A stretch of DNA of 64,000 bases, from NCBI RefSeq assembly GCF_944380985.1, contig NZ_CALWJJ010000007.1:43872-107871 (forward strand), written 5' to 3'. The notes beneath the pieces are model-generated. The model was given only the letters and a program-made list of their open reading frames with translations. It was not told the origin of the DNA and searched no databases. The stretch is from an uncultured Agathobaculum sp. GTDB taxonomy: Bacteria; Bacillota; Clostridia; Oscillospirales; Butyricicoccaceae. The first letter of the stretch is position 1. Each line of letters starts with the position of its first letter. Positions 53,854-64,000 of the stretch are shown here, piece by piece. The translations under genes and the position numbers were made by a program.

Positions 53854-54620
53854 CAAGCTGCACCTCCCAGCCGCATAAGTACGAGCGCGCATCCTGCCGC
53901 AATCGCCAGCGCGCGCAACAGCGCCTCGCTCGTGCCAAGCAGACCGCTGATCGTGTCGCCCACAATCATGTCACGCAGTGAGGTCACCAGCGAGATACCC
54001 GGGATGAGCAGCATAATGTTGCCGATGATAATATAATCAAGCCCCTGCCCCAACCCGATCTTTACAGCCGCCACGGCTGCAAGGCTGACGGCAGCAGCGC
54101 TCGCCACGGTTAGCACGATCTGCTGCAGACCAAGTTTGTCGCCCGCGCGCCCAATCACATATAACACCAGACTGCACAGCATGGCTGCCAGTCCATCGCG
54201 CCAGCTGCCGCCGAAAAACACCGCAAACGAGCCGGCGACGAGCAGATATGCCGCGGGCTTGCGCCAGACAGGCCCCGCCGGCATCGCACGAATCTCGTCC
54301 AGCCGGCATACAAGCTCGGGAAGCGGTAGCGGCGCGGCGCAGACCGCCCGTGAGAGCGCGTTGACCGCCTCAATCCGCCGCATGTCGGTCTCGCGTCGGG
54401 TGATGCGCCGGGTATGCGTCAATACCGCGCGATCAGCCGTCTGCACGGTAACCACCATGCTCGCCGTGATGGTCAACACATCCGCCCGCACAAATCCATA
54501 GGCGAGCGCCAGCCGTCGGATAGTATCCTCGACACGCGCAATCTCAGCCCCTGCAGTGAGCAACAGCTCGCCCGCATCCAGAATTGCGCACAGGGTCTGT
54601 TCCTGTTCCTGTTGCTGCAT
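53853..54620 (-). CDS. Threonine/serine exporter, large subunit (ThrE N-terminal/YjjP-like)
   Basis: 255 residues. The cytosolic N-terminal part (CAILDAGELLLTAGAEIARVEDTIRRLALAYGF) is the family hallmark, followed by about five membrane segments from residue 120 with GLDYIIIGNIMLLIPGISLVTSLRDMI, the YjjP signature. Start at 54620 behind GAGAGGG. It overlaps the small subunit gene by one base. The amino-acid substrate is predicted from family only. Confidence 0.88.
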   Translation of the reverse strand: MQQQEQEQTLCAILDAGELLLTAGAEIARVEDTIRRLALAYGFVRADVLTITASMVVTVQTADRAVLTHTRRITRRETDMRRIEAVNALSRAVCAAPLPLPELVCRLDEIRAMPAGPVWRKPAAYLLVAGSFAVFFGGSWRDGLAAMLCSLVLYVIGRAGDKLGLQQIVLTVASAAAVSLAAVAAVKIGLGQGLDYIIIGNIMLLIPGISLVTSLRDMIVGDTISGLLGTSEALLRALAIAAGCALVLMRLGGAA

Positions 54621-54670
54621 CTGTTTTCCCTCTCTTAATGTGAAAGCTTGCAAGACGCACCGCGTTTTTA

Positions 54671-56197
54671 TTACAGAAGCGGTGCGAACAGCCGCAGCAC
54701 GCTGGCTGTGATCGAGCGCAGCCACGGCACCTTGTGCAGCCACATGCCATCAATCTGACGGCTGACATTGATGGTCTCCAGAATATCCCGCTTGACCGCG
54801 GCGACGACCGAACTGTGATAAAAACAGGTCGCGCATTCAAAGTGCAGGAAAAACGAGCGAAAATCCATATTGATCGTGCCAACGACCGCAGTATCATCAT
54901 CTGACACAAGGCATTTTGCATGCAGAAATCCCGGCCGGTATTCGTAAATCTTAACACCCGCGCGGTAAAGCTGCTGATAATACGATCGCGTAATCATATA
55001 CACGAGCTTTTTATCCGGTATGCCGGGCGTCAGAATGCGCACGTCCACCCCTGATTGGGCTGCAATCGTCAGCGCGGTAATCATCTCGTTATCCAGCACC
55101 AGATACGGGGTTGTGATATAAACGTAATCCTTGGCGTTGTGGATGATTTGCAGATAGGTCGACTCGCCGATGTTGATGTCATCCAACGGGGAGTCGGCAA
55201 AGGGCTGCACAAACCCGTCTGCCGGCGGCTTGACCGTAGGCAGATAAGGATCGAGCCGCGGCACAGGCTCTCCCGTAACATATTCCCACATCTGCAAAAA
55301 GAGCGAGGTCATATTGGCTGTGCCGTCGCCGCGCAGCATAATACCAGTGTCTTTCCAGTGGCCGAAGCGCACCTTTTTATTGATATATTCGTCCGCCAGG
55401 TTTATGCCGCCCATGTAGCCTACATTGCCGTCAATAATCATCATTTTACGATGGTTACGGTAGTTGAGATAGGTGTTGAGTGTGGGCACAAAGCGGTTAA
55501 AGCGCACTGCCCGGATGCCGAGCGAGGCAAGGTAGCGATCATAGTGTGTGGGCAGGGTTGCAACCGAGCCAACGTCATCATAAATCACGCGCACGTCCAC
55601 CCCGCAGCGTACCTTTTCCTTGAGGATGTCCAGAATGGTGTTCCACATCACACCCTCTTCGATGATAAAATATTCAAAATAAACGAATTTATTCGCCCGG
55701 CGCAGTTCCTCGCACATCGAGGCGAACATCTCCTCACCCACACTGAAATAATGCGTTTCGGTATTGGTCCAGGCCGGCATGCCGTTGAGCGATTGAATAT
55801 AGCGCGCGCGCGCCGCATGGCGCGGATAGCGCCGCGTCAGCTCCTCCGTAGCGGGGGTGCGCATATAGTCGGCAAAATTCGGCGCGGTCGGCTCATACTT
55901 ATGCTGTGTACGCGCACGGTTGAACGGTGTATTGCCCCACAGCAGGTAAAATAAGCCGCCAAACAGCGGAAAGACCAGGATAATGATGATCCAGGCGATT
56001 TTATAGGTGGGGTTATCATATTTGCGCACCAGCCAGATCACCATGATAAAGCTCAATATATTCAGCAGGTAGGGCAGCCAGTTCCAACGGCTGCTGATCC
56101 ATCTCAATCCATACAGCACCGCCACCAGCTGTAAAATAAGAAAGAAACCGACAACCACACGCCGGTCTGCCAGCAGACGGCCCAAAAGTCTGCGCAT
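54671..56197 (-). CDS. cls: Cardiolipin synthase
   Basis: 508-residue phospholipase D-type enzyme making cardiolipin from two phosphatidylglycerols. Two membrane segments within residues 12-60 are followed by two HKD motifs: HRKMMIIDGNVGYMGGINLAD near residue 225 and HAKCLVSDDDTAVVGTINMD near 405. Start at 56197 behind AAAGGAG. Confidence 0.95.
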   Translation of the reverse strand: MRRLLGRLLADRRVVVGFFLILQLVAVLYGLRWISSRWNWLPYLLNILSFIMVIWLVRKYDNPTYKIAWIIIILVFPLFGGLFYLLWGNTPFNRARTQHKYEPTAPNFADYMRTPATEELTRRYPRHAARARYIQSLNGMPAWTNTETHYFSVGEEMFASMCEELRRANKFVYFEYFIIEEGVMWNTILDILKEKVRCGVDVRVIYDDVGSVATLPTHYDRYLASLGIRAVRFNRFVPTLNTYLNYRNHRKMMIIDGNVGYMGGINLADEYINKKVRFGHWKDTGIMLRGDGTANMTSLFLQMWEYVTGEPVPRLDPYLPTVKPPADGFVQPFADSPLDDINIGESTYLQIIHNAKDYVYITTPYLVLDNEMITALTIAAQSGVDVRILTPGIPDKKLVYMITRSYYQQLYRAGVKIYEYRPGFLHAKCLVSDDDTAVVGTINMDFRSFFLHFECATCFYHSSVVAAVKRDILETINVSRQIDGMWLHKVPWLRSITASVLRLFAPLL

Positions 56198-56231
56198 AAG
56201 CGACTCCTTTCCGCGTATTTTCACACGAATC

Positions 56232-56260
56232 ATCATATCGCACCCGCTGACAAAAGTCAA
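56232..56260 (-). promoter_or_regulatory. Sigma-A promoter of cls
   Basis: TTGACT, 17 bp, TATGAT on the minus strand. Confidence 0.7.
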
Positions 56261-56270
56261 TGCGTACACA

Positions 56271-56299
56271 TTGCCCCACGATAAATTCTGTGATAGAAT
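56271..56299 (+). promoter_or_regulatory. Sigma-A promoter of the M24 peptidase gene
   Basis: TTGCCC, 17 bp, TAGAAT; divergent from the cls promoter. Confidence 0.6.
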
Positions 56300-56337
56300 A
56301 AAAAAATCATACAAAACACCGATTGGAGGAACGTGCT

Positions 56338-57537
56338 ATGCCCCATACCCCCGTACCCGTCAGCGAGCTGTCGGCGCGCATCGACCGGCTGCGCCGCGCC
56401 ATGTCACAGCGCCACCCTGGCTGGTCCATGCTGCTGCTGGAAAACAAAATTGACCTTTACTATTTTACCGGCACCATGCAGGAGGGTACGCTTATCGTCA
56501 CACCCGATCTTGCTACCCTGTTTGTGCGGCGCTCGTTTGACTGCGCATCGCGCGAGTCGCTCTTTCCCGATCTGCGACCGATGAGCAGCTTCCGCGACAT
56601 CCGCCAGGCGCTGGGCGAAGTTCCGCCGACCGTCTATATCGCCGCGCGCACAATGACGTTGCAAAAACTCACTCTGCTGCAAAAACATCTTCCGTTTGCA
56701 CCACAACCGATAGACGATGTGCTCAGCGAGCTGCGCGCGCACAAGAGCGAGTACGAGCTTTGCTGTATGAGGCGCGCAGGCAGGCTGCACCAGGCTGTGA
56801 TCGAAAACGTCGCCCCCTCGCTGCTGCGCCGCGGTGTAAGCGAAGCGCGCCTTTGCAGCGAAATCTTTACCTGCATGCTCGATCATGGCGCCATGGGTAT
56901 CTCACGCTTCAATCAGCCCGCAGCGGAGGACGTGCTCGGCGTTGCGAGCTTTGGCGAAAACGGTCTGCGCGCCAGCGCGATCGACAGCCCCTCGGGTAAC
57001 ATCGGCACCTGCATTGCGATGAAGGCGATCGGTTCGTCCGAGCGATGCCTTGAGGTGGGTGACACCGTGCTGCTCGACATCCCCTGCGGTTTTGACGGCT
57101 ACCACACCGACAAATCGATCACCTTTTACTTCGGCGTGCTTGCAAAGCACCCGCAGGGCGCGCGCATCCGCGCCGCACACGAGCAGTGCGTATTTCTGGA
57201 AAACGAGATCGCCAGCCTGATGCGGCCCGACGCGGTTCCGGCAGAGATCTACGAAAAGATTCTCACCCTTGTCGATCCTGCATTCCGGGATGGGTTTATG
57301 AACGCCTGCAAGTTCCTGGGCCATTCGATTGGCCTGACGATGGACGAAACCCCGGTGCTTGCCAGGGGGTTTTCTACACCGCTTGAGCAGGGCATGACAA
57401 TCGCGGTCGAGCCAAAAATTGCGCTCGACGGCATAGGCCTGATCGGAAGCGAGAATACCTATGAGATCGCCGCGCAGGGCCCAGCCCAGTCGCTGACCGG
57501 TTTGAGCGACACCCCGTTTGAAATCACAGGACCTTGA
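56338..57537 (+). CDS. M24-family metallopeptidase (Xaa-Pro aminopeptidase-like)
   Basis: 399 residues. The N-terminal creatinase-like domain (residues 1-150) is followed by a pita-bread catalytic domain in which all five metal ligands can be assigned: Asp in LLDIPCG and Asp in GYHTDKS, His in FLGHSIGL, Glu in MDETPVL and Glu in GSENTYEI. This supports an active two-metal peptidase, probably cleaving before proline, though family members vary. A GGAGG site lies 8 bp upstream of the ATG. Monocistronic. Confidence 0.88.
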   Translation: MPHTPVPVSELSARIDRLRRAMSQRHPGWSMLLLENKIDLYYFTGTMQEGTLIVTPDLATLFVRRSFDCASRESLFPDLRPMSSFRDIRQALGEVPPTVYIAARTMTLQKLTLLQKHLPFAPQPIDDVLSELRAHKSEYELCCMRRAGRLHQAVIENVAPSLLRRGVSEARLCSEIFTCMLDHGAMGISRFNQPAAEDVLGVASFGENGLRASAIDSPSGNIGTCIAMKAIGSSERCLEVGDTVLLDIPCGFDGYHTDKSITFYFGVLAKHPQGARIRAAHEQCVFLENEIASLMRPDAVPAEIYEKILTLVDPAFRDGFMNACKFLGHSIGLTMDETPVLARGFSTPLEQGMTIAVEPKIALDGIGLIGSENTYEIAAQGPAQSLTGLSDTPFEITGP

Positions 57538-57557
57538 CAAAATTTTCATTGAGGACA

Positions 57558-57592
57558 AGCCCGCGCCGGCAAGGCCAGCGCGGGCTTTTTCC
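57558..57592 (+). terminator. Terminator of the M24 peptidase gene
   Basis: AAGCCCGCGC/GCGCGGGCTT hairpin followed by TTT. Confidence 0.85.
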
Positions 57593-57609
57593 TGCCCATA
57601 TATGGGCGC

Positions 57610-57636
57610 ACCGCAGCGCGACGCGGCGCATAGGAT
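57610..57636 (+). promoter_or_regulatory. Candidate mother-cell (sigma-K/sigma-E type) promoter of dpaA
   Basis: AC, 17 bp, CATAGGAT, which fits the sigma-K form AC-N16/17-CATANNNT. dpaAB is known to be sigma-K dependent in Bacillus. No sigma-A promoter is evident here. Short consensus, so moderate support. Confidence 0.5.
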
Positions 57637-57657
57637 GGCACAAAGGAGGTTTTCCCT

Positions 57658-58122
57658 ATGATAAAATCCGTGACCCTTGCGGTCGCCGGCGGGGATGTGC
57701 GGCAGGCGCATCTGGCGGCGCTCCTGCTAGCGGACGGTCATACAGTGCACACCTTTGCGCTCGAACGGCATCAGCCAGCGGGCTGCACCCCTTACAGCGA
57801 TCCGCGCCCCTGCTTTGCCGATGTACAGGTGGTCATCCTGCCAATGCCCGTGCAGCACGGGGATGGACAGCTCAATGCGCCGCTCGCCAATGCCCCGCAT
57901 CCGCTTGCCGATGTGCTGGACGCCATCCCAGCTGGCACGCTGACGCTCGCTGGCGCCGTTCCCTTCTGGGTGCACGCCCGCGCGGTGCAGAACGGTCTGC
58001 CGCTGACCGACTACTTAACCCGCGACGAGCTGGCCATCCGCAATGCGGTACCTACCTCGTTAGCAGTTGTGCACATCTTGCTGGTATATATTTCTGTTTT
58101 TGCGCTTTCATTGTATTTTTAA
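57658..58122 (+). CDS. dpaA: Dipicolinate synthase subunit A, N-terminal part (gene interrupted at codon 132)
   Basis: Codons 1-133 encode the N-terminal domain of DpaA/SpoVFA (VAGGDVRQAHLAALLL, VVILPMPVQ, then LTRDELAIRNAVPT). That last segment aligns with 'DDVAIYNSIPT' of Bacillus SpoVFA, where the protein should continue VEGTIMMAIQHTDFT. Instead the frame runs into 21 unrelated hydrophobic residues and stops. The missing remainder begins 3,253 bp downstream at 61304. AAAGGAGGT precedes the ATG. As it stands the product lacks the NAD-binding domain and cannot be active; excision of the intervening DNA would restore it. Confidence 0.93.
   Translation: MIKSVTLAVAGGDVRQAHLAALLLADGHTVHTFALERHQPAGCTPYSDPRPCFADVQVVILPMPVQHGDGQLNAPLANAPHPLADVLDAIPAGTLTLAGAVPFWVHARAVQNGLPLTDYLTRDELAIRNAVPTSLAVVHILLVYISVFALSLYF
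58051..58057 (+). repeat. Left attachment-site core (attL)
   Basis: CCTACCT within dpaA codons 132-134. The same 7 bp recurs at the right junction. Short symmetric arms (GGTA/TACC in the rejoined site) centre on the first CC, the likely crossover dinucleotide. Confidence 0.75.
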
Positions 58123-58227
58123 GCACAGGCGCGGCTGCGCCATCTGGCGTACTGTACCCAGTTTTCAGCCTTTTTTCTACTCGGCTGCCGCAGTAAGTCA
58201 TTAAATTATCTTATATTTTGTATATTT

Positions 58228-58249
58228 CGACAAAGCTTGTCGTTTTTTT
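58228..58249 (+). terminator. Intrinsic terminator at the left end of the element
   Basis: CGACAA/TTGTCG hairpin with a 3-nt loop and seven Ts. In the unexcised state it would stop the dpaA transcript before dpaB. Confidence 0.75.
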
Positions 58250-58259
58250 CAAGTTAGCA

Positions 58260-58288
58260 TAGACATCCTCCAGGCCGTTTGATATGAT
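58260..58288 (+). promoter_or_regulatory. Sigma-A promoter of the element-borne permease
   Basis: TAGACA, 17 bp, TATGAT. A 10-bp hairpin (58305-58332, GCCCGC/GCGGGC) follows in the leader; no purine riboswitch core was recognised. Confidence 0.55.
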
Positions 58289-58362
58289 ATTACTGTATTT
58301 CACTGCCCGCGGCTATCACACTAGCTGCGGGCGCATTTCACAAAAGGAAGGCTGTTGATCGA

Positions 58363-59691
58363 ATGGAAAAAAAGAAATCGTTAGGCGTCGAGCTATTCCA
58401 GCTCAACGGCAAACCCTCCTGGGGGCAGGCGTTCCCGCAGGCGCTCCAGCATGTGCTGGCCATGCTGGTGGGTAACATCACCCCACCGATGCTGATAGCA
58501 AGCACACTTTCCCTGTCCTCAGCAGATGAGATACTGCTCACGCAGGCAGCAATGCTGATCGGCGGCATCACAACCCTGCTGCAGCTTTACCCTATCATGG
58601 GCTTCGGTATGGGCCTGCCAAACGTCATGGGCGTAGCGTTCGCTTACATGCCCATTCTCACCATGATCGGCACACAGTACGGCATCTCGGCCATCTTCGG
58701 CTCGCAGCTGGTAGCCGGCTTTGTGTCCATCTTCATCGGTATGTTCCTGGGCAAAATACGCCGTTTCTTTCCTCCCATCGTCAGCGGTACGGTGGTGCTC
58801 AGCATCGGCCTTACGCTGTATGAAACGGCAATGAACTACATGGGCGGCGGATCAGCGGCGCAGAACGCGGGAACCTTTGGCTCGGGCAAGTTCTGGATTC
58901 TTGCACTGGTCACGCTCGCAGTCACACTCGCATGTAGCCTGTTCGGCAAGGGTTATCTGCGCGTATCCGGCATGCTGATCGGCATTGCCGTCGGCTATGT
59001 GATCGCGCTCTTTATGGGCGGCATTGTGGACTTTGGCGGCCTGGGTGAATCCAGCTGGATCTCGCTGCCTCGCCCGTTCCACTTTGACCTGTCCTTCCAC
59101 CCGGACGCGATCATCATGATGATCCTAATGTATGTTGTACAGGCCGTGCAGACCATTGGTGATGTCTCCTCAACCGCGATGGGCGGTTTTGGCCGCGAGG
59201 CGACCGACAAGGAACTTGGCGGCGCGATCAAAGGCCAGTCGGTGTGCGGTATGATCGGCGCGGTCATCGGCGGCCTGCCTACCGACCCGTATAGCCAAAA
59301 CGTCGGCCTGATCTGTACAACCAAGGTCGTTGCCAAGCGCGTGTTCCTGATCGTAGGCGTAGTTATGCTGGCTGCGGGCTTTTGCCCCAAGTTCGGCGCG
59401 CTGATGACCACTATCCCACAGCCTGTGCTGGGCGGCGCCACGGTAACCGTGTTTGCGGCGATCACCATGTCGGGCATCCAGCTGCTCAATGAGCAGCCGC
59501 TGAACTACCGCAACAAGATGATCGTGGGCATTGCGCTCGCCATCGGTCTTGGCATCGACGCGGTGCCGAATATCCTGCAATTCTGCCCACAGCTGGTGCG
59601 TAATATCTTTGGCAGCTCGCTGGTGGTCTCTTTCCTGATCGTATTCCTGCTGAATATCATCGTACCCAAGGATGATTCCCCGGCTTGCTAA
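58363..59691 (+). CDS. NCS2-family nucleobase permease (xanthine/uracil type)
   Basis: 442-residue polytopic membrane protein with about 14 segments. LPNVMGVAFAYMPIL near residue 85, the segment-8 motif VVQAVQTIGDVSSTAMGGFG near 260 and GGLPTDPYSQNVGLI near 305 place it in the nucleobase:cation symporter-2 family. The VQTIGD motif looks closer to xanthine/urate transporters than to UraA; substrate not proven. RBS AAAGGAAGG. It lies inside the dpaA element and would be lost from the mother-cell chromosome on excision. Confidence 0.9.
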   Translation: MEKKKSLGVELFQLNGKPSWGQAFPQALQHVLAMLVGNITPPMLIASTLSLSSADEILLTQAAMLIGGITTLLQLYPIMGFGMGLPNVMGVAFAYMPILTMIGTQYGISAIFGSQLVAGFVSIFIGMFLGKIRRFFPPIVSGTVVLSIGLTLYETAMNYMGGGSAAQNAGTFGSGKFWILALVTLAVTLACSLFGKGYLRVSGMLIGIAVGYVIALFMGGIVDFGGLGESSWISLPRPFHFDLSFHPDAIIMMILMYVVQAVQTIGDVSSTAMGGFGREATDKELGGAIKGQSVCGMIGAVIGGLPTDPYSQNVGLICTTKVVAKRVFLIVGVVMLAAGFCPKFGALMTTIPQPVLGGATVTVFAAITMSGIQLLNEQPLNYRNKMIVGIALAIGLGIDAVPNILQFCPQLVRNIFGSSLVVSFLIVFLLNIIVPKDDSPAC

Positions 59692-59701
59692 CCGCAACCG
59701 C

Positions 59702-59743
59702 AAAAAGATCCCCGAAACACTGCAATGTTTCGGGGATCTTTTT
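59702..59743. terminator. Bidirectional terminator between permease and recombinase
   Basis: Perfect 18-bp stem starting AAAAAGATCCCC with a 6-nt loop and T-runs on both strands; ends the two convergent genes of the element. Confidence 0.93.
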
Positions 59744-59749
59744 GCCATT

Positions 59750-61084
59750 TTAAAGCCGCGTACAGGCCGAAAACACACCGCGTTTCCAATCCGATATCTC
59801 CATCCAAAACGCACCTTCCACACCGCACAGATAGACAGTCAGCGCATCCTCCGAAACGACGATCCGTTCGAGCAGTGTACCGTAAATCAGGCTCCCGGGC
59901 TGCGTTCCATCCGCCGGCACCGCCCGACAGGCTGCTCGCTCGGCACCGGTCAGGCGATGCGTAAGCGCCGCCGCATCCTCTACAACTTTGGCTGCATCAA
60001 TATTCAGCTCTGCCAACAGATGCGCCATGCACGCACAAACCGTGTCCTCTGTCACAGAATGCATGGCGCAGCCCTTGCTGCCACGCTGCACCCGTGTCCG
60101 GCAGGTCCAGACCTGGTAGGTTGATCTGTCTGTACGCTGGCGCCGGCGCGGCGTAAGCCGGCTGCCACAGGCAGCGCAAATCAGTTTTCCTGAGCACCAA
60201 TACCGCGCGGAATGGCGCGCATACTGTCCGTTCTTCGTCGCGCGTCGTTGCAGCTCGCGCTGCGCCTGGTCAAATACCGCGCGCGACACGATTGCTTCAT
60301 GGTGGTCCGGCAGGTAGATCTGCTCTTCCCTGCCGTCGTTTTTGACCTTTTTGTGATCGAGAAAGTCAGGTGTGCAGGTCTTTTTTTGCAGCAGGTCGCC
60401 GCAGTATTTTTCATTGCGCAGCAGCCGTAGCACCATAGTAGACGACCACGGCTTATCTTTCGCGCGTGGCGGTAGGATGCCCGCCTCGGTCAGCTCGCGC
60501 GCAATGATCCAGCTACCCTTACCCTCGTGCAGAAATTTGTGGTACACCATGCGGATGACCGCCGCCTCATCCGGCTTGACGGTCAGCTGGCCGCCGCGCA
60601 GATCAAAGCCGTAAATCTGATTGCAGCCGAATACCACACCCTGCTCCATCGACCGCCGCTGGCCCCACTTGACTCGCTCAGAGGTCTTGCGGCTTTCCTC
60701 CTGCGCCACGCTCGCCATGATGGTCAAGCGAAACTCTCCGTCATTTTGCCGCGTATCGATGTTGTCGCCGATGAACACCACGCCTACGCCGATCTTGCGC
60801 AGCGCGCGCGTGTGCGCCAGCGCGTCGACCGTATTGCGGGCAAAGCGCGAAACCTCCTTGGTCAAAATTAGATCAATTTTGCCCGCCTGCGCCGCGGCAA
60901 TCATACGCTGGAAAGCCGGTCGCCGCACTGATGTGCCGGATAGGCCGCGGTCGGCATAGACCTCGGCAAGCTCCCAATCCGGCCGGCGGCTGATGTACTC
61001 TGCAAAATACTGCTGCTGGTGTGCAAGCGAGTGCAGCTGATCATCTTGTGCGGTCGACACGCGGCAATATGCCGCAACGCGCAT
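59750..61084 (-). CDS. Large serine recombinase of the dpaA element
   Basis: 444-residue site-specific recombinase. The resolvase domain (1-140) has AAYCRVST with nucleophile Ser10 and Arg8, then DRGLSGTSVRRPAF and LTKEVSRFARN. The 'recombinase' DNA-binding domain (about 155-260) contains NEKYCGDLLQKK. A zinc ribbon (CAACGSR, then CRTR...GC) lies near 305-345. All parts look intact. The ATG at 61084 has GAGAGG upstream, 14 bp after the 44-residue gene. Position just inside attR and the mother-cell-type promoter suggest it excises the element during sporulation, like SpoIVCA at sigK. Confidence 0.93.
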   Translation of the reverse strand: MRVAAYCRVSTAQDDQLHSLAHQQQYFAEYISRRPDWELAEVYADRGLSGTSVRRPAFQRMIAAAQAGKIDLILTKEVSRFARNTVDALAHTRALRKIGVGVVFIGDNIDTRQNDGEFRLTIMASVAQEESRKTSERVKWGQRRSMEQGVVFGCNQIYGFDLRGGQLTVKPDEAAVIRMVYHKFLHEGKGSWIIARELTEAGILPPRAKDKPWSSTMVLRLLRNEKYCGDLLQKKTCTPDFLDHKKVKNDGREEQIYLPDHHEAIVSRAVFDQAQRELQRRATKNGQYARHSARYWCSGKLICAACGSRLTPRRRQRTDRSTYQVWTCRTRVQRGSKGCAMHSVTEDTVCACMAHLLAELNIDAAKVVEDAAALTHRLTGAERAACRAVPADGTQPGSLIYGTLLERIVVSEDALTVYLCGVEGAFWMEISDWKRGVFSACTRL

Positions 61085-61098
61085 GCGCCTCTCTCCGC

Positions 61099-61233
61099 TC
61101 ACGCCTCAAGCACCCTGCCCACAACGCGCACCAGCTCCTCCGGTGTGATCACGCCCGCCGCGCATAGCGCATCCAGTACCCCCTGCATGAGCGCTCGCTC
61201 CACTGCTTGCCGCTCCTTGTTTGTCAGCTCCAT
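61099..61233 (-). CDS. 44-residue protein upstream of the recombinase (SHOCT-like motif)
   Basis: MELTNKERQAVERALMQGVL then DALCAAGVITPEELVRVV: a short helical protein whose 'LxxAGVITxEEL' segment recalls SHOCT-type modules. GAGGAGG lies 8 bp before the ATG, a stronger site than that of the recombinase. Being first in the recombinase unit, it is a candidate accessory or directionality factor for excision; this is inference. No catalytic motif is present. Confidence 0.72.
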   Translation of the reverse strand: MELTNKERQAVERALMQGVLDALCAAGVITPEELVRVVGRVLEA

Positions 61234-61255
61234 ACAAAACGCCTCCTCGCCCGCC

Positions 61256-61285
61256 ATCATATGCGCTGCGAAATACCAGTATGCC
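61256..61285 (-). promoter_or_regulatory. Candidate sigma-E (mother-cell) promoter of the recombinase unit
   Basis: GGCATACT, 14 bp, CATATGAT on the minus strand; 6 of 8 matches to each half of the sigma-E form GTCATATT-N13/14-CATACAAT. No TTGACA/TATAAT pair is seen in the 70 bp available. Confidence 0.55.
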
Positions 61286-61303
61286 TATACCGCAAACGAT
61301 CTC

Positions 61304-61310
61304 CCTACCT
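61304..61310 (+). repeat. Right attachment-site core (attR)
   Basis: Second copy of CCTACCT, in frame with the dpaA 3' part. In the predicted excised circle, arms GCAAACGA and TCGTTAGC (7 of 8 complementary) flank a 10-bp centre containing the CC dinucleotide, as expected for a serine recombinase site. Confidence 0.75.
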
Positions 61311-61786
61311 GCGAGGGTGCTATTCAGCTGGCGATGGAACAGACCGATTTTACCCTGCAAGGCGCACGCTGCCTGGTGATCGGCTGCGGCCGCATCGGCG
61401 CGCCGCTGGCGCGCAAGTTGCATGCGCTCGACGCGCAGGTCGTTGTCTCGGCCCGATCGCCACGCGATTTTGCGCGCATTGAGGCTGCGGGCATGGGCGC
61501 GCTCGACACGCGCCGTCTTGCCGGGCATTTGAACGGCTTTGACCTGGTGTTCAACACTGTGCCTGCGCCCGTACTTGGCGCAAGCGAGCTTGCAGGACTA
61601 AAAGAGGACTGTGTCGTGATTGACCTGGCTTCCCTCCCGGGCGGCATCTCTCCCGATGCTAAGCTTCCGGCCGCATGCCGCGTACTGCACGCGCTGTCGC
61701 TACCTGGACGGGTCGCGCCGCTGTCTGCCGCCCGCGCCATCCATGACACAGTTTGCGCGGTTCTGGAGGAGGAGGGAATTGTATGA
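61304..61786 (+). CDS. dpaA: Dipicolinate synthase subunit A, C-terminal part (no start codon of its own)
   Basis: 160 codons from the attachment core to the TGA. It begins PTCEGAIQLAMEQTDFTLQG, the direct continuation of the N-terminal part, followed by the Rossmann motif CLVIGCGRIGAPLARKLHALDA, then VIDLASLPGG and LHALSLPGRVAPLSAA, all typical of SpoVFA. No stop, frameshift or decay is visible. There is no ribosome site or start codon at the junction, so it can only be translated after joining to the 5' part. The stop overlaps the dpaB start (ATGA). Confidence 0.93.
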   Translation, partial: PTCEGAIQLAMEQTDFTLQGARCLVIGCGRIGAPLARKLHALDAQVVVSARSPRDFARIEAAGMGALDTRRLAGHLNGFDLVFNTVPAPVLGASELAGLKEDCVVIDLASLPGGISPDAKLPAACRVLHALSLPGRVAPLSAARAIHDTVCAVLEEEGIV

Positions 61787-62373
61787 GCGAGCCGCTCCGC
61801 ATCGGCTTTGCCCTCACGGGATCATTCTGCACCTTTTCCCAGGTACTGCCTGTGATTGAGATGCTTGTAAAGGATGGCAGTCTCGTTACGCCCATCCTCT
61901 CCTATCACGCAGGCACGCTCGATACGCGCTTTGGCACGGCCGCCGATTGGCGCGCGCGTCTGGCCGCGCTGACCGGTCGCGCACCGATCGACACGATCGT
62001 TGACGCCGAACCCATCGGTCCCAAAGCATTGTTCGACGTACTCGCTGTTGCGCCATGCACAGGCAACACGCTTGCCAAGCTCGCGCACGGTATTACCGAT
62101 ACGCCGGTTACCATGGCGGTCAAAAGCCACCTGCGCGGCGACCGGCCAGTCGTGCTCGCTGTCGCCACGAACGACGGGCTTGCCGGCAGCGCAGCCAACA
62201 TTGGCGCATTGCTCGCCCGACGGCATTACTACTTTGTTCCGCTGCGACAGGACGCGCCTACAGCCAAACCCCGCTCGCTCGTCGCGGACATGACCCTTCT
62301 GCCCAAAACCCTTGCCGCGGCGCGCGAAGGCCGTCAGATACAGCCCATTCTGCTCGCGCCGGGTAAAGGGTGA
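61783..62373 (+). CDS. dpaB: Dipicolinate synthase subunit B
   Basis: 196-residue flavoprotein-fold subunit (SpoVFB) which, with DpaA, oxidises dihydrodipicolinate to dipicolinic acid in the mother cell. RIGFALTGSFCTFSQVLPVIEML at the N-terminus, VLAVAPCTGNTLAKLAHGITDTPVTMA near residue 90 and VVLAVATNDGLAGSAANIGALL near 125 are diagnostic. Full length (Bacillus 200). It overlaps dpaA by 4 bp and depends on the same upstream promoter, so it too should be silent until the element is removed. Confidence 0.95.
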   Translation: MSEPLRIGFALTGSFCTFSQVLPVIEMLVKDGSLVTPILSYHAGTLDTRFGTAADWRARLAALTGRAPIDTIVDAEPIGPKALFDVLAVAPCTGNTLAKLAHGITDTPVTMAVKSHLRGDRPVVLAVATNDGLAGSAANIGALLARRHYYFVPLRQDAPTAKPRSLVADMTLLPKTLAAAREGRQIQPILLAPGKG

Positions 62374-62380
62374 AAAAACA

Positions 62381-62417
62381 GCAGGCCTGCCGGGACAATA
62401 CGCCCGCGGGCCTGCTT
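62381..62417 (+). terminator. Hairpin terminator after dpaB
   Basis: GCAGGCC...GGCCTGC stem extended by CGGG/CCCG, followed by a T-rich TTCTTCT tail. Confidence 0.65.
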
Positions 62418-62427
62418 CTTCTGTGTT

Positions 62428-63351
62428 CTATTTTTCCGTTACCCGGTTTTTATCGATCTCGAGATTTTCACCGGTCACAAATGTGACCGCACGGCTGCAA
62501 TTTGTAATTTCAGCATGCGCTACCGCCCCGCCGAACTCGCCGTCAAGCGTCCACGGCACCTTATCCTCCGCGTCAAAGATGATGCGGGAAGTGCGAAAGT
62601 AGGCGAAACGGCTTGAGCTGGTGTTATGCGTCAGCAAATCATTGACAAGCCCCTGCAACTCGATCGGGTTTTCCACCGGATACACAAGCAGCACCTCATA
62701 CAGCCCGTCATCCAGCACTACGCCGCCCGGCTCGATGGCCTTAAATCCGCCAACCGATACGCTGTTCGACACCATACCGTAGATGAAGTGATCCTCCACC
62801 GAAAGCTCGGCGCTCTGCACACGAATGCAATGCGCCCGGATGTTAGTCAGCGCCTTGACACCTGCAAAGAGATAAGCCGCCCGCCCGAAGATGTTCTTCG
62901 ATTGCTGTGGCGTGGCGTAGGAAACCTCGGTAAACACGCCAAAAGCCGCAATATAGTTAAAGTACCGGTCGTTAAATCGCCCGATGTCGAGCGCGTGCAG
63001 ATGATCGCCCACCGTGATTGCGGCCGCATCCGGCACAGACTTGGGTATGCCGAGGCTAAATGCAAAATCATTGGTTGTACCTGCGGGGATATAGCCAAGC
63101 GGCGGCCGCACGGGAGACTCCATCAAGCCCGTCACCACCTCATTGAGCGTGCCGTCTCCGCCTGCGCACACAATGCGGTCAAACTCAATCGCACGGCGAC
63201 GCACCACGTGCGTCGCGTCCTGTGCGCCCTGCGTCACATAGACAGTCACATCATACCCTGCCTGCTGGAACACATTGATGCAGGCGATCGCCTTGCCGCT
63301 GACCGCACCACGGCCGGCATGCGGGTTTACAATCCACAGCAGCTTTTTCAT
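62428..63351 (-). CDS. Diacylglycerol kinase-like lipid kinase (YegS/BmrU family)
   Basis: 307-residue cytosolic lipid kinase with the DAGK catalytic domain. LLWIVNPHAGRG at the N-terminus, the nucleotide loop CAGGDGTLNEV near residue 62, and PAGTTNDFAFSLG near 90 are conserved; LDDGLYEVLLV and LDGEF lie in the C-terminal beta domain with the general base. It probably phosphorylates diacylglycerol or a related lipid. Confidence 0.93.
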   Translation of the reverse strand: MKKLLWIVNPHAGRGAVSGKAIACINVFQQAGYDVTVYVTQGAQDATHVVRRRAIEFDRIVCAGGDGTLNEVVTGLMESPVRPPLGYIPAGTTNDFAFSLGIPKSVPDAAAITVGDHLHALDIGRFNDRYFNYIAAFGVFTEVSYATPQQSKNIFGRAAYLFAGVKALTNIRAHCIRVQSAELSVEDHFIYGMVSNSVSVGGFKAIEPGGVVLDDGLYEVLLVYPVENPIELQGLVNDLLTHNTSSSRFAYFRTSRIIFDAEDKVPWTLDGEFGGAVAHAEITNCSRAVTFVTGENLEIDKNRVTEK

Positions 63352-63383
63352 CGGGCGCGCCTCCTTTGCTTATATGGCAGGTT

Positions 63384-64000
63384 TTATGAAATCAGATCGC
63401 ACACAGCGTTTGCGTAGGCAACCGGATCCTCGACTGGCATTCCCTCGATCAGCAGCGCCTGCGTGTACAGAATATTGGCGTAAGTTGCAAGCCGGTCCGA
63501 CCCCGCCTGATGCAGTTCGCACAGCTTTTTGAAGATCGGATGCTCGGCGTTTAGCTCAAGCACACGCTCGGCATGCACGCGCTGGCTGTCGTCTATCGCC
63601 TGCTGATTGAGCACCTTTTCCATCTCAAGCGTCACCGGCCCCTCGGCACGTAGGCAGCAGGGATGGCTTTTCAGCCGGCCGGTCAGCTCAACTTTTTTGA
63701 CCTTGCCGGTCAGCGCCTCGCCTACAGCGGCCAACAATGTTGCATTCTCCTCAGAGAGCTTTTTGATTTCTTCCTTTTCTCCCTCGGTTTGCAGGCCAAG
63801 ATCAGCGTCCGTGATTGACTTAAACGCTTTCTCCTTATAATCTGCCAGAATCTTGATGCAAAATTCATCAATGCTATCGTCGAGGCACAGCACCTCATAT
63901 CCCTTGTCATGCAGCGTCTCCATTGCGGGCAGTAACTTGATCTTATCCACAGTTTCACCGCAGGCGTAGTAGATATACTTTTGCTCCTCTTTCATGCGGG
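63384..64000 (-). CDS. htpG: Hsp90-family chaperone HtpG, C-terminal part (5' end outside window)
   Basis: The last 205 codons of HtpG. RMKEEQKYIYYACGETVDKI is the conserved start of the middle-domain end; GYEVLCLDDSIDEFCIKIL and LKSHPCCLRAEGPVTLEMEKVL lead into the C-terminal dimerisation domain (NAEHPIFKKLCEL). The frame is open through the right edge of the window, so the ATP-binding domain is not visible. It lies 32 bp upstream of the lipid kinase on the same strand. Confidence 0.95.
   Translation of the reverse strand, partial: RMKEEQKYIYYACGETVDKIKLLPAMETLHDKGYEVLCLDDSIDEFCIKILADYKEKAFKSITDADLGLQTEGEKEEIKKLSEENATLLAAVGEALTGKVKKVELTGRLKSHPCCLRAEGPVTLEMEKVLNQQAIDDSQRVHAERVLELNAEHPIFKKLCELHQAGSDRLATYANILYTQALLIEGMPVEDPVAYANAVCDLIS

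Follow-up and report, generated by a model that had tools for sequence, protein, structure and literature searches.

The window analysed here, a stretch of 64,000 nucleotides from an uncultured Agathobaculum sp. (contig NZ_CALWJJ010000007.1, positions 43,872 to 107,871; coordinates below count from its first letter), contains a dpaA gene that is interrupted between codons 131 and 132 by an island of 3,253 bp (58051-61303). The first half of the gene (codons 1-131, 57658-58050, plus strand) is free of stop codons and encodes the DpaA_N domain (PF16924; 78.7 bits against a cut-off of 29.2 for 57658-58047). The second half (codons 132-291 and the stop codon, 61304-61786, plus strand) encodes the nicotinamide adenine dinucleotide-binding part and is likewise recognised by profile matches. 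Positions 1-134 of the NCBIfam model for dipicolinate synthase subunit A (NF006162, 297 positions) are covered by the first half and positions 135-291 by the second, hence the halves are complementary; joined, they give a frame of 291 codons that is collinear with eight whole relatives in an alignment. By ATGA (61783) the second half overlaps dpaB (61783-62373, plus strand), which is intact with 238.2 bits for TIGR02852 (cut-off 229, scanned from 61756). An initial annotation, made from the letters of the window, had described two undecayed dpaA halves exactly 3,253 bp apart, an uninterrupted 291-codon frame after collapsing the repeats at the junctions, an intact dpaB and an intact serine recombinase. 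Coordinates, domains, spacing and frame were confirmed, as was the integrity of all these genes.

The island has three genes, one for a purine-type permease (plus strand), a 44-codon open reading frame (ORF) and one for a large serine recombinase (both minus strand). The recombinase (450 amino acids, 59750-61102) is an open frame with Resolvase, Recombinase and Zn-ribbon domains and matches PHROG 95, integrase, with 403 bits; scoring 120.6 bits against the CcrB cut-off of 900 and, as second-best NCBIfam match, 117.8 bits against the XisF cut-off of 375, it is a member of neither family. The small ORF (61099-61233) overlaps the recombinase start; it found no Pfam or NCBIfam match and only a PHROG 5301 'transcriptional repressor' match at E 3.5e-4. 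With a GC content of 57.3%, compared with 57.9% in the flanks, the island is not compositionally foreign. An Rfam scan of 54000-64000 gave no matches.

The window genome (1.84 Mb, 20 contigs, 97% complete) has one DpaA_N match in a profile search, and the second half has one strong match in it, another match of 23 bits on a different contig being weak. A second complete dpaA, which the initial annotation had named as evidence that would speak against it, was looked for in this draft and not found, and a second copy was rejected as an explanation. Another objection it had named, a host that never makes dipicolinate, found no footing either: there was no sign of a host unable to sporulate, Spo0A is present, and a whole sigK reaches 254.1 bits with NF004471 (cut-off 252), remaining below the stricter TIGR02846 (247.6 bits, cut-off 298.65).

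Across 25 genomes of Agathobaculum, whose members here we take to be gut commensals, a profile search found a DpaA_N match in 20. At the very same codon dpaA is split in 12 of them (G000, G002, G004, G007, G008, G009, G010, G012, G013, G014, G021, G024), and it is whole in eight (G003, G005, G016, G018, G019, G020, G022, G023). A split at one codon in 12 species is not a matter of chance. Both halves lie on one contig in nine of the 12 split genomes; in G012 a second contig carries the start of the first half, and in G004, G007 and G014 each half has its own contig, running into island sequence. An assembly chimera was rejected on the grounds of the shared codon and of the single-contig cases, which include the two-contig genome G013. 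The recombinases of the split species are 55-75% identical to that of the window, and among the 25 genomes 12 recombinase hits reach at least 55% identity, all in the split genomes and adjacent to the second dpaA half, and the hit ranked next has 51%. Seven islands are assembled end to end and measure 2,487, 2,529, 3,253, 3,696, 3,915, 4,243 and 6,556 bp, and those of G002 and G024 extend over about 23 and 45 kb by coordinates. This genus-wide spread, the varying cargo and the Spo0A-family genes described below had not been seen in the initial annotation. A search for whole DpaA in the wider family (87 genomes in all) added three genomes of other genera, G084, G082 and G064, with a split at the same codon and recombinases 54-59% identical to that of the window; in G064 the halves are on two contigs.

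Both junctions in the window carry CCTACCT (58051-58057 and 61304-61310), as the initial annotation had stated. Its presence stands, but as a core it gives way to CC, the first two bases of Pro132, the only bases common to both junctions in all 12 split genes, although individual junction pairs often share more in a side-by-side comparison. CC is also kept on both sides in the three same-codon cases from other genera. Codon 132 is CCT in 22 of 24 junction sides, compared with none of the eight whole genes. We accordingly place attL at 58051-58064, with the CC crossover at 58051-58052, the repeat, and the island half-site arm TCGTTAGC (58057-58064), and attR at 61292-61310, with the arm GCAAACGA (61292-61299), CC at 61304-61305 and the repeat (both plus strand). 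The junction of the circle that excision would produce is a dyad about CC, in which 11.0 of 22 positions are complementary on average (range for single islands, 7-18); at 12 shifted axes the means were 3.7-6.9. As the dyad is centred on CC, it indicates the crossover independently of the junction comparison, and its shape fits the attP site of a serine integrase.

The first half has 131 codons and no stop in all 11 complete cases, and the second half 160 codons in all 12. Median pairwise ratios of non-synonymous to synonymous substitution rates (dN/dS) were 0.144 for the first half (55 pairs, G012 being left out at a contig end) and 0.158 for the second half (66 pairs) of the split genes, and 0.110 and 0.103 for the corresponding parts of the whole genes (dS was finite in 26 of 28 pairs for each part). 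Both halves are thus under purifying selection, and judged by these ratios the split dpaA is still selected as one gene. A dpaA that is simply broken, with dipicolinate or sporulation lost, might be expected from the five genus genomes that have no DpaA_N match, two of which (G011, G015) are at least 90% complete, but is very unlikely given the lack of decay in 12 species at a dN/dS of about 0.15, the promoter motif kept before dpaA in 12 of 12 split species (see below), and the spo0A, sigK and dpaB genes kept in the window genome. It is scarcely conceivable that the halves act as two separate polypeptides, a split enzyme for which no excision is needed. The frame of the second half is open back into the island in all 12 cases, by 25 to 286 codons, but in none of them was an in-frame start with a Shine-Dalgarno-like motif listed within 60 codons upstream; beyond the first half the frame runs on for anything from 6 to 387 codons, extension lengths are conserved for neither half, and no promoter for the second half was recognised.

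The arrangement next to attR suggests when the recombinase would be made. A small ORF of 37-46 amino acids directly precedes the recombinase gene in 11 of the 12 Agathobaculum islands, with a consensus by eye near GLLRALYEAGxITEAxYRALLE, and inspection by eye also showed it in G064 and in the islands L057 and L058; it is a candidate directionality factor. Between the crossover and the start of this ORF, 26-34 nt before its start codon, 11 of 12 islands contain CATANNNT, which we take to be the -10 element common to the mother-cell factors SigE and SigK. Shuffled sequences gave a mean of 0.68 and at most 4 in 2000 shuffles, and 4.6% of random 71-nt stretches of the window contain the motif; since it was picked, like TGTCGAA below, after seeing the sequences, neither shuffle control is blind. 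In the window the predicted SigE-type promoter (61256-61284, minus strand) consists of GCATACT (61284-61278), close to a SigE -35 element, 14 bases, and CATATGAT (61263-61256). Upstream of dpaA itself, CATANNNT is found in 20 of 20 species and AC-N16/17-CATANNNT, presumably a SigK-type promoter, in 19 of 20; the predicted copy in the window (57610-57637, plus strand) has AC at 57610-57611, 17 bases, and CATAGGATG at 57629-57637.

On this basis we consider it highly probable that during sporulation the serine recombinase encoded in the island cuts it out of the mother-cell genome and rejoins dpaA in frame, shortly before dipicolinate is needed. After asymmetric division, SigE of the mother cell would transcribe the small ORF and the recombinase gene, the small protein would act as directionality factor and switch the recombinase to excision, and attL and attR would recombine at CC of codon 132. 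The circle would be lost with the dying mother cell, and SigK would then transcribe a restored, uninterrupted dpaAB. The forespore genome would keep the island, which would therefore be inherited.

A protein search with the joined DpaA of the window, of which 120 of 475 matches were listed, revealed a possible product of such a reaction. P0016, a protein of 291 amino acids on a 1,250-bp contig of a public assembly (source tag lgn, which we take to denote an assembly of public reads), agrees with the joined halves of G008 (131/132) in 288 of 291 residues, those at the junction included. It may stem from an excised mother-cell genome or from a strain without the island. Together, the islands at one site, the intact halves with their low dN/dS, the dyad, the promoter motifs and this whole allele support the dpaA-targeted, developmentally excised element of the initial annotation, with excision itself as a prediction from sequence.

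The history of the islands was followed on a host tree and a recombinase tree, each with several weak or open forks (the first half of G012 was entered in the former as X; x58, in which no start motif was found, was omitted from the latter, and the G007 recombinase is cut by a contig end at 301 amino acids). The split state is clustered on the host tree, requiring 3 changes where shuffled labels average 6.6 and 1 of 500 shuffles is as low. The host groups G000/G004/G012, G002/G024 and G007/G014 recur in the recombinase tree, and G020, with a whole dpaA, sits beside G000/G004/G012 on the host tree. The island of G004 is a mosaic, its permease being 92% and its recombinase 73% identical to those of the window. 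The trees so point to long residence in some lineages and to movement, swaps and losses in others.

Excision and rejoining could also proceed without developmental control, being constitutive, stress-linked or rare, with dpaA serving as a conserved landing site. Assorted cargo, island sizes from 2.5 to about 45 kb, eight of 20 species without islands, a recombinase of a phage-type integrase family (PHROG 95), the disagreement of the two trees over G013 and G009, and the whole allele that occurs naturally in the G008 lineage would all suit such an element. This is nevertheless unlikely: 11 of 12 islands have CATANNNT ahead of the recombinase operon, split genes cluster on the host tree, the matches listed include no rejoined allele of the window species, and related recombinases lie in or by another spore gene, cotJC (see below).

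Several observations weigh against excision in the mother cell or blur its traces. The dyad is weak in G008, G009 and G013 (7 or 8 of 22), the -35 region is not clearly SigE-like in G010, G021, G009, G007 and G014, and the 45-kb island of G024 has neither the small ORF nor the promoter motif. In G064 the recombinase is near the first half of dpaA, not the second. The dN/dS values are slightly higher in split than in whole genes, and the purifying selection may partly be older than the insertion. G013 and G009, paired on the host tree, fall into different recombinase groups, and from this conflict it follows that islands also move or swap. Among the matches listed, a rejoined DpaA was found for only one of the 12 split species and none for that of the window, where the best full-length match is at 79%; the cluster of the window species (P0044, 98% identical, six contigs) is the second half of dpaA alone, an observation that also counts against uncontrolled excision. 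P0016 could come from a strain in which the island was never present. Viral contigs gave no match to the exact circle junction, and most host genomes are drafts, several of them metagenome-assembled genomes by title. With these points weighed, the evidence is best explained by a precise removal of the island in the mother cell, a step that is itself a prediction.

Apart from the recombination module, the islands differ in content. The permease of the window (58363-59691, plus strand) belongs to the NCS2 nucleobase family (PF00860, 284.5 bits; TIGR00801 ncs2, 311.8 bits, above the cut-off of 291.8) and is closest to xanthine permease, staying below the cut-off for pbuX (TIGR03173, 380.3 of 414.15 bits). 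It lies 137 nt downstream of TTCGACAAA (58226-58234, minus strand), which we take to be a perfect Spo0A-box consensus. Three of the 12 islands carry a permease, those of G000, G012, where the frame is alike by eye, and G004, the window's included; a perfect TTTGTCGAA on the minus strand is found 137 and 140 nt before the permease in two of the three, G012 (140 nt) among them and G004 not. No phage structural or replication gene was recognised among the three genes in the 3,253 bp of the window, and a phage origin of this island was rejected, the integrase-type recombinase being the only gene of that kind.

Seven of the 12 islands (G007, G008, G009, G010, G013, G014, G021) encode a protein with a receiver and a Spo0A_C domain (65-83 bits for Spo0A_C), and all seven genomes have a standard Spo0A (156-158 bits) elsewhere. 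The six island proteins that were aligned (that of G009 was left out) all retain the acceptor Asp, the RKP lysine and the recognition-helix motif VERxxR; the acidic pair close to the start is partly retained. TGTCGAA, which we take to be the core of the Spo0A box, occurs 10 times upstream of these genes, in four of the seven islands (shuffle mean 0.27, highest 3 in 1000 shuffles). In the same alignment, the standard Spo0A of G010 (L084) and of G008 (L085) have Glu at the phospho-acceptor position, the other six aligned having Asp. YitT-family genes are present in the islands of G012, G007 and G014, and the G008 island also contains QueT, a class-V aminotransferase and a PP-loop protein. Type IV pilus genes and a MatE transporter are found in the island of G002; a sample of the G024 island showed sugar-nucleotide and glycosyltransferase-like genes and a further recombinase. 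Hence the module of attL, recombinase, small ORF, promoter and attR recurs across islands, and the cargo around it is exchangeable.

Relatives of the recombinase were also looked for outside dpaA. A search of viral contigs with the recombinase found no relative, and a DNA search of phages and plasmids gave only three matches, at 67-70% DNA identity, two of which, in the plasmid record and in a fecal contig, adjoin cotJ genes. The spore coat catalase gene cotJC is split or adjoined by related recombinases that come with a small ORF of this kind. In G023 (L057:5989-12850) the C-terminal half of cotJC with its Mn_catalase domain lies 6.4 kb from the N-terminal half, whose own start is not open in frame; L095 (MT839280.1) shows the N-terminal half by eye, and in L097 (Pusillibacter faecalis plasmid pMM59_01) the recombinase is beside cotJB. 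L095 and L096 (MT837874.1) are both labelled Bacteriophage sp.; the label of L095 is doubtful, because it has frames like those of a bacterial chromosome by eye (radA-like, amidase-like, cotJ). The insertion sites of the recombinases L054, L055, L056 and L058 were not recognised by eye.

Other spore genes of these bacteria appear to be interrupted as well. In G023 (C36, L091) and G006 (C29, L093) the sigK match breaks off at model position 67, with a serine recombinase alongside, and in G018, G016, G001 and G014 it does so at 212-213, which suggests skin-like elements at two sites in Agathobaculum sigK. In dpaA, a second split site, at a PGG motif near codon 244, was seen in three other genomes of the family (G083, G036, G034), with the repeats CCAGGGGGGGCTG in G036 and GGGGGGCTG in G083; the halves in G034 are on two contigs (L079/L080). 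The second-site islands of G083 (L077:1078-18140) and G036 (L078:1067-19143) are 16-17 kb long; their serine recombinase is distant (29-30% identity), and they carry genes of purine biosynthesis (by Pfam in G083, by eye in G036), among them the only purF over the cut-off in G083. At the level of the order, at least nine genomes have two DpaA matches each (G134, G204, G222, G227, G228, G231, G233, G368, G419) and are possible further cases of split genes; in G204 the DpaA match listed covers 1-246 only, which is the position of the second site.

The dpaA island has four traits of an intervening element: it lies inside a spore gene, has a repeat at its junctions, yields a complete protein on collapse and encodes its own serine recombinase. 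In heterocyst-forming cyanobacteria, a serine recombinase, XisF, the same family that gave the below-threshold match of the window recombinase, excises the fdxN element in a terminal cell type. For endospore formers, the cited accounts list intervening elements in sigK, spoVFB, spoVR, spsM, gerE and yabG, and our search of the open-access literature gave no report of an interrupted dpaA/spoVFA, in line with the initial annotation, which was aware of no such element in dpaA. The closest case is vfbin in spoVFB (dpaB) of Bacillus weihenstephanensis KBAB4 (Abe et al. 2013, as cited in PMC4191935, PMC6957869 and PMC10747680). Like the dpaA islands, it bears a recombinase and interrupts a mother-cell-expressed dipicolinate synthase gene, and it is excised in sporulation; in the citing accounts, it differs in having the partner subunit as target, phage-related genes and a single named strain, whereas the dpaA islands are mostly small and occur in 12 species of one genus and in other genera. 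The skin elements in sigK of B. subtilis and C. difficile share the serine recombinase, and their excision in the mother cell yields a rejoined composite gene, as proposed for dpaA, but they are prophage-like and target a sigma factor gene rather than an enzyme gene. According to the cited account, CD1234 is the recombination directionality factor of the C. difficile skin and depends on SigE and SpoIIID (PMC5025042); in the dpaA islands the candidate for this role is the 37-46 amino acid ORF directly before the recombinase. The gin element in gerE of Bacillus cereus is described with a serine recombinase, no phage genes, variable gene content, the directionality factor GirX and expression in the sporulation phase (PMC5595907). 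It resembles the dpaA islands in the first three respects, but has three recombinases against one in the island of the window, another target and host class, and, in that account, no Spo0A-family cargo noted. The proposed excision in the mother cell follows the logic established, as these accounts present it, for skin (PMC5025042) and gin (PMC5595907). In C. botulinum, yin is likewise reported to interrupt a SigK-dependent spore gene, yabG, with both forms seen in culture (PMC10747680), but is there described as prophage-like and from one isolate. The spo0A genes borne by phages of the human gut are, as cited, truncated and without receiver domain (PMC10294663); they too place a Spo0A homologue on mobile DNA, whereas the island versions have receiver and DNA-binding domains. 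What is new is dpaA as the target, interruption of the same codon across a genus, a minimal build without phage genes, and cargo that is exchangeable and includes full-length Spo0A-family genes.

Provided that cutting is confined to the dying cell, the cargo of the islands, part of which seems linked to Spo0A, could be carried with little burden on the germ line. As a tentative extension, which we regard as possible without giving it the better chance of being right, Butyricicoccaceae may harbour a class of small, site-specific, freely cargo-swapping islands that dock without cost in genes used by the mother cell alone (mainly dpaA, also cotJC) and are cut only in the dying cell; with full-length Spo0A-family regulators and Spo0A-box promoters of their own, they may enter the sporulation circuit of the host and bias the decision that triggers their excision and secures their inheritance. 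The Spo0A-family cargo makes it testable whether mobile DNA steers this decision. The 2.5-kb islands represent small natural excision modules, with att sites, recombinase, candidate directionality factor and promoter, suited to testing how a particular cell type is instructed to cut its genome. If the proposed excision holds, gene-by-gene annotation can misread the split species as unable to make dipicolinate, and gene splitting with repair in the mother cell only would reach beyond a few strains of Bacillus and Clostridium, serving gut Clostridia as a stable means of housing cargo across a genus.

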